Shown here in pieces: positions 46,250 to 50,733 of a stretch of 64,000 bases of DNA (position 1 is its first letter; each line of letters begins with the position of its first letter). The notes beneath the pieces were generated by a model. It was given only the letters and a program-made list of their open reading frames with translations, had not been told where the DNA came from and made no database searches. The stretch spans positions 1-64,000 of the forward strand of contig NWQT01000027.1 in assembly GCA_002798295.1 (NCBI GenBank), given 5' to 3'. Position numbers and translations under genes: made by a program. This stretch comes from Lysobacteraceae bacterium NML07-0707. GTDB taxonomy: Bacteria; Pseudomonadota; Gammaproteobacteria; Xanthomonadales; Xanthomonadaceae.

Positions 46250-47398
46250 TTGCCCAACCTCACCACCACCACCGGCCGTATTCTTCTGGTTGACGACCAA
46301 CCTGTCAGCCTGCGGGTGGTCACGCAGCTATTACAGCGCCAGGGACATGAAGTCAGCAGCGCCGCCCGTGGCGAAGACGCACTGGCCGAGTGTCTTGCCC
46401 ATCCACCGGACTTGATTTTGCTGGACATGATGATGCCGGGCATGGATGGCTTTGAGCTGCTACGGCAAATCCGGCAGAACCCGAAACTGGCCAGCATCCC
46501 GGCCATTTTTCTCACCGCCGCCCAAGACCAGGAACTCTTGCTGCGCGCCTTTGAAAGCGGCGTGGTGGATTACGTCACCAAGCCATTCCTGGCCGAAGAA
46601 TTGCTCGCCCGCGTCAATGCCCATCTGGTACTGAAACTGACCCGTGACCGCCTGGAGCGTGTAGCCACGGAACGCCAGAACCTGGTCAACCTGGTCGCCC
46701 ACGATTTGAAAAACCCGCTGACCAGCGTGCTGTTTGCCAGTGAAATGCTGATGCTTCCCGACGTGGAGGCCGAACGTAAAGCGCGCTATCAAAAAATCAT
46801 CCACGAAGCCACACTGGACGCGCTGGGTTACATCAAGAGTTATCTGGAATCGCAATCCCGGCCCCCGGACACCGGACAGCAGTGCGCATCCCTGCATGAA
46901 GTCGTGGATTGGCTGCTTGAGCGCTATGCACTGCAACTGGAAGCCCGGGGCATTGAAGTCAGCACCCGCCTGCCAGAGCAAGCTGCCATGGTGGCCATCG
47001 CACCGAAGGTACTGCGCCAGGTTGCCGAAAACCTGGTGACCAATGCCAGCAAATACGCCGCCAGCGGTGGCGAGCTGATGTTCTGGGTACGCACCGGCGC
47101 CCCCGGCTACTGGCAGCTGGTGGTACAAGACCGCGGCCCCGGCATCGCGCCTGCACGGCAGCGCGAACTGTTCAAACCCTTCACCCGGCTTTGCGAACAC
47201 GACCCGGCCAATGGCCTGTCATCCGGCCTTGGTCTGGCACTGGCACGACAAATCATCGCCGCCGCAGGCGGACACCTGTTCTACGAAGACCGCGAGGGCG
47301 GCGGCGCGCGCTTTGTGATTGAGCTGCTCGAAGCCAGCTCCAATAGCCAAAAACAGGCTCGGATAACCGAGCCTTTGCAAAACAACTACAGACAATAG
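46250..47398 (+). CDS. Hybrid receiver-histidine kinase
   Basis: 382-residue cytoplasmic protein with an N-terminal receiver domain (residues 10-130; VDD, LLDMMMPGMDG with the phospho-acceptor, TKPF) followed by a histidine-kinase core: H-box LVNLVAHDLKNPLTSVL (about 138-165), N-box ENLVTNASKYA, G1 DRGPGIAP and G2 SSGLGLALARQ. This receiver-first layout receives phosphate from another kinase or senses through the receiver. The start must be TTG at 46250 because no ATG or GTG in frame precedes GRILLVDDQP. The C-terminal tail after ELLEASS is encoded by a terminator-like hairpin. Target unknown. Confidence 0.86.
   Translation: MPNLTTTTGRILLVDDQPVSLRVVTQLLQRQGHEVSSAARGEDALAECLAHPPDLILLDMMMPGMDGFELLRQIRQNPKLASIPAIFLTAAQDQELLLRAFESGVVDYVTKPFLAEELLARVNAHLVLKLTRDRLERVATERQNLVNLVAHDLKNPLTSVLFASEMLMLPDVEAERKARYQKIIHEATLDALGYIKSYLESQSRPPDTGQQCASLHEVVDWLLERYALQLEARGIEVSTRLPEQAAMVAIAPKVLRQVAENLVTNASKYAASGGELMFWVRTGAPGYWQLVVQDRGPGIAPARQRELFKPFTRLCEHDPANGLSSGLGLALARQIIAAAGGHLFYEDREGGGARFVIELLEASSNSQKQARITEPLQNNYRQ
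47350..47374 (-). terminator. Minus-strand terminator lying inside the kinase 3' end
   Basis: Perfect 8-bp stem AGGCTCGG (47355-47362) / CCGAGCCT (47367-47374), ATAA loop. On the minus strand it is followed by GTTTTTGG, so it fits as the terminator of the convergent gene at 47405-47839; on the plus strand TTTG follows. It codes for part of the kinase tail. Confidence 0.6.
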
Positions 47399-47404
47399 GC
47401 CGTA

Positions 47405-47839
47405 TCAAGCACCGGTGTCTTCGGCATGCTCATCACGTTCAATTTGCAGATGACGCCAATGTCCCTCAATGGCGGTTTGCTCGGCTTTTTTGCGAGCATG
47501 GCGACGCTGGGCATACCAGGCCAGTCCCACGCCTACCGCGGCTGCCGTCATCAGAACCGGGTGGCGGCGCACGAACTTGCCTGCCACTTTGCTGCCGGTT
47601 TTGACAGCTGCAAGCGCTGCGCCGGTTTCCAGCCACTTGATCGCGGCATCGGGCAGTTGGTTTTTCAGACCACCACCGAGATTGGAGGCGCGGCCGCCCA
47701 TGCTGGAGGCAAAATCAGCAGCCTTGTGACCCACCCTGGAGGCGCGCTGCCCCATATCCGCAGCAAAATCTGCCGCGCGGCTGCCCACTTCACTCGCAAC
47801 CTGGGCGGCGCGTTGGGTAATGTCGTCAAATTTGTTCAT
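47405..47839 (-). CDS. Small membrane protein with apolipoprotein/LEA-like heptads
   Basis: 144-residue protein. The first half (1-65) is an amphipathic helical region with near-11-residue repeats such as QVASEVGSRAADFAADMGQRASRVGHKAADFA. A hydrophobic segment (about 95-112) follows, then a basic and finally acidic tail. The plan resembles small stress-induced inner-membrane proteins of the YqjD/ElaB kind, though I do not identify a family. ATG at 47839 opens the helical region. It is convergent with the receiver-kinase gene, 6 nt apart. Confidence 0.7.
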   Translation of the reverse strand: MNKFDDITQRAAQVASEVGSRAADFAADMGQRASRVGHKAADFASSMGGRASNLGGGLKNQLPDAAIKWLETGAALAAVKTGSKVAGKFVRRHPVLMTAAAVGVGLAWYAQRRHARKKAEQTAIEGHWRHLQIERDEHAEDTGA

Positions 47840-47985
47840 GGCTATCTCCAGACAAGCATGGTTGAAAATTGGCGCAAGTATCCACTGCCTGATGTCTTTA
47901 TGGTGTGACAAACCCGCTTGTGACTGAACGGGCTTTCAGCTTTCCTCCGCAATTAGCACGCGACCCTGAGCATTGATTGAGAAGA
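47840..47985. other. Gap between the small membrane protein and the 125-bp repeats
   Basis: Holds the minus-strand start region of the small membrane protein (GGAGATAGCC just before its ATG) and no recognisable gene. The adjacent repeat region continues to the hrpB stop, so together they form a gene-free stretch of about 395 nt. Confidence 0.6.
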
Positions 47986-48278
47986 TCACGCCCCCTTGGC
48001 TTTGCCCTGTGCGTCGCCACCGCATTCCGCACCTTAAAAAACCGCGCAGTCCAGTCATGTGGCCACCGTCGTCACGGGCAAAACGCTTTCACGTTCACGT
48101 ATCCAGCGCTCACGTCCCGCGCGGCTTGGCTCTGTGCGTCGCCACTGCATTCCGCACCTTAAAAAACCGCGCAGTCCAGTCATGCCACCACCGTCGCCAC
48201 GGGCGAAACGCTTTCACGTTCACGCATCCAGCGCTCACGTCCCGCGTGGCTTGGCTCTGTGCGTCGCTACCGCATTCC
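47986..48278. repeat. 125-bp tandem repeat duplicating the hrpB 3' end (2 full copies plus 44 nt)
   Basis: Landmark CTGTGCGTCG recurs at 48007, 48132 and 48257, an exact 125-nt period. The first two units are roughly 90% identical; the third consists only of 48235-48278, which is the last 13 codons plus stop of hrpB. On the minus strand all three copies encode the peptide NAVATHRAKPRG, and the base differences within those twelve codons are synonymous. Other stretches shared by the units are ACCTTAAAAAACCGCGCAGT and CGCTTTCACGTTCACG. A minus-strand ORF of 42 codons (48055-48183) runs across one unit; I do not regard it as a proven gene. Confidence 0.9.
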
Positions 48279-50733
48279 ATGGATCATCCGGCCACGGATG
48301 CTTCGGGTATCGCCCTTTCATTTCTTTCTTCACTTCCGGGTAGGTGTTTTCCCAGAAACTTTTGAGGTCGCGGGTTACTTGCAATGGCCGTTGTGCAGGC
48401 GAGAGCAGGTGCAGGGTCAGCGGGATGCGTCCTTCGCAGATGCGCGGGGTTTCGCCGAGGCCAAACAGTTCCTGCAGCTTCACCGCCAGTACTGCTTCCG
48501 GCGCGTGCGTCTGGCCATCACCAGGCAGGTAGCGGATGCTGCGCTCAAGACCTGAAGGCACGGTGATGCGCCGCGGTGCAAGCTGGTCGATGCGGCGTCG
48601 GCATTCCCAGTCCAGCCGGTGACTGAGCGCCTGATGCAACTCCTGGCTTTGCAGCGCATCCAGTCGGGTTTTTCCGGCGAGCACGGGAGCAAGCCAATCT
48701 TCCAATGTGGCGAGCAGGGCGGGTTCGGAAAAATCCGGCAGCCCAAGTTCAGGCATCCAGTGCTTGAGGCAGGCCACACGGGCAAGAAAATCATCACGCT
48801 CATCCCAGGGCAGCACTTCAAGCCCCAACTCGCGCACCGCCGCCAACAACGCCGGGGTGGCCAGCGCCGGATCCACTTTACCTGCCGGACGCGAAGCCAG
48901 CACGATACCGGCAAAGCGGCTGATACGCTCGACGACCAGGGCGCGCTTTTCTGCATCCCAGCGTACCTCATCGCCTTCACGAAAATCGCTGGCAAAGGCA
49001 TCGCGCAAATAGCTCTCGTCCACGGGTGCGCCGCCCAATAGCAAGGCATCACGAGCCTCAAAACGCAGTTCACTGGCCACCAGCCACGGCTCGCCTTGCA
49101 GCGCGCTGTGCTCATGCAATCGCATGCGCCGGCCATTGCTGAGCTGATAACGCAACATCTGTCCGGGTTGCTTGCAAGCGATGCGGTCGGGAAAGGCGTG
49201 TACCAGCACATCCCCCAGTGCATGCGCAGGCACATGCGCTGGGGGCGAGTTTTGCAAGCGGATACGTCGGCGCCATTGCTTGGCCGCCTGGTCGATGGCG
49301 GCCAGGGCACTGCGACTGGCATCGGCCGGTATTTGTCCACGCCGGAACGCCGCCAGCGCCTGCCAGCGCTCGGCCAGCGCATCGCTGCGACTGCGCAACG
49401 GGTCACGCGCCTCCAGTAGCGCGGCCAGATCACAGGCCAGCGCGCGCGTTTCATCGCCTTGTGCAGCCAGCAACATGGCCGCCAATCGCGGGTGCGTACC
49501 CAATGCCAGCAAGGCGCGGCCATGCACGGTGATGGCGTGCTGTGCATCCAGTGCCCCGAGCTGCCGCAACAAATCGCGTGCCGCAGCCAGTGCGCCCGTT
49601 GGCGGGGCATCGACAAAGCGCAGGGCTGCGCTGCCCCAAGCCGCCAATTCCAAGGCCAGTCCGGCCAGCTCGACTTGCTGGATTTCCGCGCGCCGCTGCG
49701 GCGCAAGCCGCTCGGACTCGGGCCACAGGCGATAACAGTGCCCGGCCGCCACACGCCCGGCGCGTCCGGCACGCTGGTCGGCGCTGGCCTGGGCGATGCG
49801 CACCACCTCCAGCCGGGAAAAGCCGCTATTGGGGTCATAACGCGGCTCACGCGCCAGCCCACTGTCAATCACCACACGCACACCGGGCAAGGTCAGGCTG
49901 GATTCGGCCACATTGGTCGCCAGCACCACGCGGCGCTTGCCGTCGGGCGCAGGCTGCAAGACGCGGGCTTGCTGCTCCACCGGCAATTCGCCATGCAGGC
50001 TCAATATTTCCACATCGGGCACATCCAGCGTGTGCAGTGCGCTTTCCGCGCGGCGGATTTCCCGCAAGCCCGGCAGAAACACCAATACATCGCCAGGATG
50101 CTGCCCGAGAGCCAATTCCACCGCGCGCTTTAGCTGCACTTCCAGTACCTCATCGCGACGCGCCGGAAAATGGCTGATGTCCACCGGGAAACTGCGCCCG
50201 GCACTGCTGATGCGCGGCGCATCGAGCCACTGGGCAAGCCGCTCGCCATCGAGCGTGGCACTCATCAATACGATACGCAGGTCATCGCGCACACTGGCTT
50301 GCACATCCAGCGCCAGTGCCAGGCCAAGATCGGCAGCCAGATGCCGCTCGTGGAACTCATCAAACACAATCGCGCCCACGCCTTCGAGCATGGGATCGTC
50401 CTGAATCAAACGGGTGAGGATGCCCTCGGTGACGACCTCAATCCGGGTGCGTGCCGATACTTTTTGCTCGAAACGGATGCGATAGCCCACCGTTTCACCG
50501 ACGGCCTCGCCCAACTGCTGCGCCATGAACATCGCCGCCGCGCGCGCCGCCACCCGGCGTGGCTCCAGCATCAGGATTTTCTGCCCCGAAAGCCATGACG
50601 CCCCCAGCAGCGCCAACGGCACCTGGGTGGTCTTGCCTGCACCCGGCGGCGCCTCCAGTACCAGACGGGGATGCTGCCCGAGAGTTTTCAGCATCGTCGG
50701 CAAGCATTCTTCAACGGGAAAGCGCAAAGACAT
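48235..50733 (-). CDS. hrpB: ATP-dependent helicase HrpB
   Basis: 832-residue DEAH-box helicase of the HrpB group. Walker A is APPGAGKT (about 31), then PRRVAAR, DEFHER (Walker B variant), SAT, the second RecA domain with NVAESSLTLPGVRVVID and the QRAGRAGR motif VI, followed by the HA2 and HrpB-specific C-terminal domains. Its cellular role is not defined; it is widespread in proteobacteria. It ends KHPWPDDPWNAVATHRAKPRGT, and the final 13 codons are also present in the tandem repeat downstream. ATG at 50733 matches family length; a later ATG at residue 14 is an option. Confidence 0.94.
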   Translation of the reverse strand: MSLRFPVEECLPTMLKTLGQHPRLVLEAPPGAGKTTQVPLALLGASWLSGQKILMLEPRRVAARAAAMFMAQQLGEAVGETVGYRIRFEQKVSARTRIEVVTEGILTRLIQDDPMLEGVGAIVFDEFHERHLAADLGLALALDVQASVRDDLRIVLMSATLDGERLAQWLDAPRISSAGRSFPVDISHFPARRDEVLEVQLKRAVELALGQHPGDVLVFLPGLREIRRAESALHTLDVPDVEILSLHGELPVEQQARVLQPAPDGKRRVVLATNVAESSLTLPGVRVVIDSGLAREPRYDPNSGFSRLEVVRIAQASADQRAGRAGRVAAGHCYRLWPESERLAPQRRAEIQQVELAGLALELAAWGSAALRFVDAPPTGALAAARDLLRQLGALDAQHAITVHGRALLALGTHPRLAAMLLAAQGDETRALACDLAALLEARDPLRSRSDALAERWQALAAFRRGQIPADASRSALAAIDQAAKQWRRRIRLQNSPPAHVPAHALGDVLVHAFPDRIACKQPGQMLRYQLSNGRRMRLHEHSALQGEPWLVASELRFEARDALLLGGAPVDESYLRDAFASDFREGDEVRWDAEKRALVVERISRFAGIVLASRPAGKVDPALATPALLAAVRELGLEVLPWDERDDFLARVACLKHWMPELGLPDFSEPALLATLEDWLAPVLAGKTRLDALQSQELHQALSHRLDWECRRRIDQLAPRRITVPSGLERSIRYLPGDGQTHAPEAVLAVKLQELFGLGETPRICEGRIPLTLHLLSPAQRPLQVTRDLKSFWENTYPEVKKEMKGRYPKHPWPDDPWNAVATHRAKPRGT

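Follow-up and report, generated by a model that had tools for sequence, protein, structure and literature searches.

The array behind hrpB

The window, a stretch of 64,000 nucleotides from Lysobacteraceae bacterium NML07-0707, carries on its minus strand, at 47986-48278, three tails of the helicase gene hrpB at 125-bp steps, each encoding NAVATHRAKPRG (Table 1). Tandem Repeats Finder places the repeat at 47998-48278 with a period of 125, 2.2 copies and 92% match, and each period consists of a 44-bp hrpB tail and an 81-bp spacer with a conserved core. An initial annotation, made from the letters alone, had described three such periods encoding this peptide and had taken the third as the actual end of hrpB. 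Both statements are confirmed, the copy at 48235-48278 closing a reading frame that scores over the TIGR01970 cut-off. Between tails 3 and 2 there are 3 differences in 44 nucleotides, and between tails 2 and 1 there are six in the first 35. All of these substitutions are silent, just as the annotation had described the codon differences, although a 1-nt deletion must be added for copy 1, the most distal tail, whose stop is out of frame because one base is lost after its GGG codon. The two 81-bp spacers differ at six positions.

Table 1. Features of the hrpB array and its surroundings in the window.
Feature	Position	Strand	Evidence or remark
hrpB, ATP-dependent RNA helicase HrpB, 832 aa	48235..50733	-	ORF; 1125.2 bits to TIGR01970, above its cut-off
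Functional hrpB tail (copy 3), starting at the GG of the final TGG codon and ending with the TGA stop	48235..48278	-	
Unit 1, spacer plus element, 81 bp	48154..48234	-	R1 match 48152-48210, 35.1 bits, E 1.6e-4 (genome)
Box A, CCCGTGGCGACGGTG, with 4-bp hairpin CCGT-GGCG-ACGG	48189..48203	-	One pair covaries across loci
Box B, GGTGC, adjoining GG of the next tail copy	48154..48158	-	
Displaced tail copy 2, reading to its stop	48110..48153	-	3 silent differences from copy 3
Unit 2, spacer plus element, 81 bp	48029..48109	-	6 differences from unit 1; R1 match 48027-48085, 23.6 bits
Displaced tail copy 1	47986..48028	-	Silent substitutions; one nucleotide missing ahead of the stop
Small ORF downstream of the array	47405..47839	-	ORF list

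The small ORF downstream of the array matches nothing in Pfam or NCBIfam at E ≤ 0.001, and an ORF with a similar start follows hrpB in 14 of the 17 genomes of the window's genus, its own included (judged by eye). A reading of the repeats as a terminator or promoter was rejected, with zero promoter or terminator consensus sites found in 47800-48400.

All 17 genomes of the genus carry an hrpB over the cut-off. The closest relative by BLASTN of the array, G001 (85% over 211 of 281 bases), has a two-unit array of its own, the second tail of which reads NAVATHRVKLRGT, with one silent and two replacement changes. CCCGTGGCGACGGTG, exact or with two mismatches, is common to the spacers of the window's genome (G000), G001 and G009. 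Downstream of hrpB in G009 (L003) lie tandem repeats of about 51 bp that consist of the element alone, without a gene tail. The hrpB end of G012 (L017 and L005) is close to the edge of a contig, and directly after it comes unrelated DNA that by eye resembles an insertion sequence.

Similar arrays occur throughout the family. The exact, synonym-tolerant pattern ATHRAK(P/S)RG matches in 237 of 297 family genomes and at least twice in 16, with the copies in tandem in 15 of these and on different contigs in G062. Periods of hrpB arrays are 102-127 bp, or 193-194 bp in genus g45, and as many as four tails are present in G521 and in Xanthomonas euvesicatoria L135. Alignments of tails using DNA only (score ≥18) recover a copy on the sense strand of 22 of 234 distinct hrpB ends and on the antisense strand of none, in a sample that is enriched for picked arrays and includes ends from other families; the copy begins 58-83 nt past the stop in 17 of the 22. 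Allowing up to two mismatches, CCCGYGGCGRCGGTG lies within 120 nt of the hrpB stop in 29 of the 234 ends, compared with one on the other strand and seven in a control region 250-370 nt downstream of the stop.

A short element behind unrelated genes

The core in the spacers is about 50 bp long and runs from a left hairpin, CCGTGGCGACGG, to a right end (box B) that is GGCGC in most array-bearing relatives and GGTGC in the window. One pair of the box A hairpin covaries across 25 elements, 20 with T-A and five with C-G, while the other three pairs do not. A model of the core (R1), built from 25 elements with the window's own left out, matches 70 of 297 family genomes and 23 of 54 genera at E ≤ 0.01 with up to 18 candidates scored per genome; taking the rough E-values as valid, chance would account for about three genomes. 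With the same number of candidates scored, G135 has at least 18 hits and G283 at least 17. Among 299 genomes of the order, 16 match at E ≤ 0.001, 15 of them in the Lysobacteraceae/Xanthomonadaceae and one elsewhere. A gapped two-box pattern finds 16 of the 297 genomes, with 11 places in G135 and a single hit for the reversed control, and several of its single hits resemble chance matches in coding DNA.

The array is thus one instance of a short element that recurs across the Lysobacteraceae/Xanthomonadaceae with displaced gene ends. The earlier suggestion that the element may be dispersed is borne out by these 70 genomes, and a search of the unit succeeded among relatives but not at home, where BLASTN of the array against its own 2.39-Mb draft genome (54 contigs) gives no second place at E ≤ 0.001. 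In G135, many dispersed copies (L336, L350 and L354-L362) share a non-coding stretch that begins with GGCCGGACGGAAGGGCGGAGCAA and often follows a palindrome, GGCCATGGATGGCC. A phage origin was rejected; hits of the pattern on viral contigs are, among the matches listed, for the most part a small set of variants of a single recurring 51-nt sequence, and blastn of the window array against 50,697 phage and 72,556 plasmid records yields no match at E ≤ 0.01. Literature searches, which reached their sources in part, returned no publication describing the core element.

Whether the unit is always located behind hrpB had been raised as a check in the initial annotation; it is not. The core, followed by a copy of the preceding gene's 3′ end, was found at hrpB, parE, SRP RNA, a tRNA, cysW, an M23 peptidase gene (L447) and a PfkB kinase gene (L427). 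The parE target is identified by TIGR01055, over the cut-off in L390 and just below it in L333. SRP RNA (RF00169) was found in L389 and in all 10 loci tested, a tail copy being present in some but not all. At L437 the element lies behind a tRNA, read by eye as Lys, and at L413 behind cysW (TIGR02140), where the displaced tail apparently runs into the start of the next gene. The stretch duplicated after the element at L429 (G145) is not a sense-strand gene end and is an exception to the gene-end rule. Upstream of the SRP RNA in L389, L387, L417, L334, L443 and L449, the Rfam family sX4, a Xanthomonas-type sRNA, overlaps a whole tRNA-Ser gene, so these sX4 matches may partly be the tRNA. Many core copies have no gene-end duplication at all. 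At the best R1 loci a direct repeat scoring at least 15 accompanies 20 of 26 box A/B sites and is missing from six, and in a second batch it is missing from 27 of 48.

Where a tail is duplicated, the copy usually begins at a GG inside the gene; in hrpB this is mostly the GG of the last or the last but one TGG codon. The GG is preceded by GC in 14 of 18 hrpB records (GGTGC in the window), or in 13 of 17 distinct ones because G318 and L131 are identical here. Three of the 18 break the GG rule (G107, G158 and G225, the last keeping GGCGC at its joint without the GG), and G004 is ambiguous. In a wider table the element side ends in GCGC at 33 of 65 joints, with the copy starting GG in 28, GT in three, AG in one and CC in one (a joint between two elements), although this is no independent test of the GG rule because the search favoured box B before GG, AG or GT. 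Most of the remaining 32 rows reflect mismatches within near-identical units, or weak matches. There is little microhomology at the hrpB joints, since the sequences to the left of the shared GG mostly do not match.

Silent and replacement differences between tails

Counts of silent and replacement differences omit the loci found with the synonym-tolerant pattern and drop nothing else. They include L153 +82 (0 silent, 4 replacement) and pairs scoring under 17, whose inclusion weakens the p values. Copies of the hrpB end differ from the gene at 54 silent and 31 replacement nucleotides over 20 pairs (64% silent), where 31% would be expected of neutral copies and 47% if the gene-borne tail alone were selected (p = 1.7e-3). 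For parE the corresponding figures are 42 and 29 over 17 pairs (59%, p = 0.05 against one neutral side), or 32 and 27 at scores of at least 18 (p = 0.24). Taking the nearest copy at each of 27 loci gives 73 silent and 43 replacement differences, an excess over the expectation for one selected and one neutral tail (p = 9e-4) that is also seen when all non-pattern loci are used (p = 4e-4).

The excess of silent differences therefore holds in the tabulation that the initial annotation had called for, whereas the silent-only divergence that it had noted in the window does not extend to other copies. Pattern-found hrpB pairs (16) give 40 silent differences to one replacement, a count that is biased because these pairs were found with a pattern that tolerates synonyms, and individual pattern-found loci are entirely silent (7:0 in G173, 8:0 in G225 and 5:0 in G190). 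Copies found otherwise show silent-to-replacement ratios of 1:2 in G001, 7:4 in L241 and 2:8 for the distal copy of L379. Such decay is frequent in distal copies, with ratios of 4:4 in L390 and of 5:1 in L391, where the stop is lost, in addition to L379. An in-register stop is absent from 9 of 46 compared copies, including window copy 1. A diversity-generating retroelement was rejected as the source of the differences, which are not adenine-directed; the gene tail has A at 39 of 174 changed positions and at 436 of 1,849 compared positions.

Tails and spacers of the same array can also be compared. In the parE array of G156 (L381) the tails differ at 12 of 39 positions, but the 36 bases that follow show no difference (Fisher p = 2e-4). 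This excess in the tail is absent from six other comparable arrays of adjacent units, in which tail and spacer differences are 0/57 and 3/67, 4/57 and 1/68, 0/57 and 3/61, 1/44 and 2/58, 1/44 and 3/70, and 3/44 and 2/69, and from the window (3/44 and 6/81).

Judged from these comparisons, the silent differences are likely explained by the former function of the tails as gene ends. Their excess fits tails that were once functional and have been displaced or exchanged better than it fits translated copies, and duplication followed by concerted evolution could also have produced it. A downstream copy that differs from a gene end at silent positions alone need not be translated.

Origin of the units and comparison with known systems

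Occupancy of the hrpB site was compared in genus g17, where 36 of 38 genomes match and provide 36 hrpB ends. By eye, six of these have the full structure and four have remnants. On a tree of the hrpB body this distribution needs eight changes, at least six of them forced by starred branches, and occupancy is no more clustered than in shuffles, 147-154 of 500 of which are as low. The site of G536 is empty, and its tail end and downstream sequence match the end of the displaced tail of G318 and what follows it, both tails ending GGCACCTGA-CGAAGTCGTTCAGCC. Recombination between the two tails of G318 may have given the tail of G536, which makes a precise deletion as possible as a site that was never occupied; in this pair of genomes insertion and precise deletion look alike and cannot be told apart.

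We consider it probable, with moderate confidence, that the 125-bp repeats reflect a short dispersed element placed directly behind genes, and that the displaced tails are fossils of functional ends. A unit carrying a working gene tail would be placed in front of a GG in the gene, either by a site-specific joining reaction or through import from a relative by homologous recombination. The gene would keep a complete end while its former end was displaced downstream, and repetition would give arrays of tail and element units in tandem. Displaced tails would diverge silently at first and then lose frame, stop and residues, so that the downstream copies would need no coding role. Recombination between tails could remove exactly one unit and would account for the empty sites seen in close relatives. 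The proposed movement of the units was at no point observed directly; how they arise is inferred from sequence comparison, and a dedicated joining reaction is an unproven candidate.

The most serious competitor is ordinary tandem duplication, in which a conserved sequence behind genes would promote slippage or unequal crossing-over, with concerted evolution among the copies and silent divergence of the gene-borne tail under selection. Variable copy number, up to the four tails of G521 and X. euvesicatoria L135, the element-only tandem copies of G009, and the similar divergence of tails and spacers in the window as well as six of seven comparable arrays are all as expected of such a process. 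One selected and one neutral tail also predict about 47-49% silent differences, which parE alone nearly fits. However, the silent excess goes beyond this model both for hrpB and for all non-pattern loci, the parE tails of G156 have diverged beside an unchanged spacer, unrelated genes are joined to one and the same core and right end, and the poorly matched bases left of GG at hrpB joints offer little microhomology. On balance we regard duplication as unlikely, though deserving serious consideration. Coding selection on the downstream copies, as peptides or spare ends, was one of two readings offered by the initial annotation, the other being repeated capture of diverged hrpB tails. Capture or displacement gains from the 54:31 ratio over 20 hrpB pairs, while coding selection was rejected and seems very improbable. 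It would account for the silent-only substitutions in the window, G173, G225 and G190, but the last three come from the synonym-tolerant pattern. Selection on downstream peptides is not supported because downstream copies gain replacements (as in G001, L241 and the distal copy of L379), lost stops (nine of 46) and frameshifts; the non-pattern counts, the same architecture at RNA genes and the lack of a promoter-like site in 47800-48400 also speak against it.

Two further readings tie the element to known kinds of mobile DNA. REP-associated Y1 (HUH) transposases use hairpins and a short target motif, and the box A hairpin with its covarying pair, the constant right end and the GG-type joint are what a non-autonomous element moved by them in trans might show. 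A Y1 transposase is present in 22 of 30 genomes tested, yet PF01797 has no hit in the other eight, six of which are carriers of the element (G000, with no match in the window's draft genome, and G001, G009, G078, G090 and G251). We rejected Y1 movement on this ground and hold it to be improbable. Slightly more doubtful still is that the arrays are collapsed attachment sites of larger islands integrating at gene 3′ ends with tyrosine integrases. In the portions of the Islander study consulted, tRNA and tmRNA genes are typical sites, and the incoming DNA regenerates its target and leaves the old end displaced as a fragment (PMC4383910). These islands have sizes peaking at 13.6 and 39.9 kb (PMC4383910, same portions), whereas hrpB units measure 102-194 bp. 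Islands come with integrases, and no integrase is encoded between the target copies of the window, where the spacers are 81 bp. A single core of about 50 bp at different genes, and an array unmatched in the phage and plasmid records, likewise tell against islands.

Among other short repeats, REP/BIME and other small palindromic repeats are likewise short, dispersed and hairpin-forming. We know of no REP/BIME-type repeat that carries a copy of the end of a neighbouring gene. Sequences like rtT have been noted within BIMEs, according to the accessible part of one report (PMC2965389).

The closest known system is RtT (Rfam RF00391), which lies in the E. coli tyrTV operon, encodes the small RNA RttR and resembles the window arrangement in having an element behind a gene, a displaced 3′ end and a tandem layout. 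In the tyrTV-rttR region of E. coli K-12 (control L616), we found three RtT matches at 178-bp steps, and a 17-nt sequence, TCCTTCCCCCACCACCA, that occurs six times, twice in tRNA-Tyr genes and four times displaced. The discovery of RtT as an RNA liberated from the tyrT transcript, and its link to the stringent response, are given in the available text of PMC4986893. RtT differs in sequence from the window element; its model has no match at E ≤ 1 in 47300-49000 of the window and none over threshold on L001, L333 or L437, where the only Rfam match is the tRNA of L437 itself. At L334:1163-1284 an RtT-type element (RF00391, 51.8 bits) lies behind a tRNA-Ser, ends in a displaced tRNA-Ser 3′ end and directly precedes an SRP RNA gene bearing a window-type element.

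RtT sits in a tRNA operon, whereas the window element lies behind hrpB and that of one relative (L437) behind a tRNA, the targets of the window-type element being mainly protein genes and SRP RNA. To our knowledge, the RtT-like layout is otherwise known only from tRNA operons. If the insertion proposed here is true, the units would rank among the smallest that can insert into conserved genes while leaving these intact, and would offer a testable handle on the origin of RtT-like repeats. More tentatively, and as a possibility that we hold well short of probable, they might form a new minimal class of mobile DNA in the Lysobacteraceae, defined by a constant sequence of about 50 bp, by joining of GGCGC before GG and by the carrying or copying of a gene end, with the host gene never broken, RtT of enterobacteria as another member sharing its mechanism, and the displaced tails as a fossil record of former gene ends. 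The layout typified by RtT is found here behind protein-coding genes and SRP RNA as well, with a core of its own.
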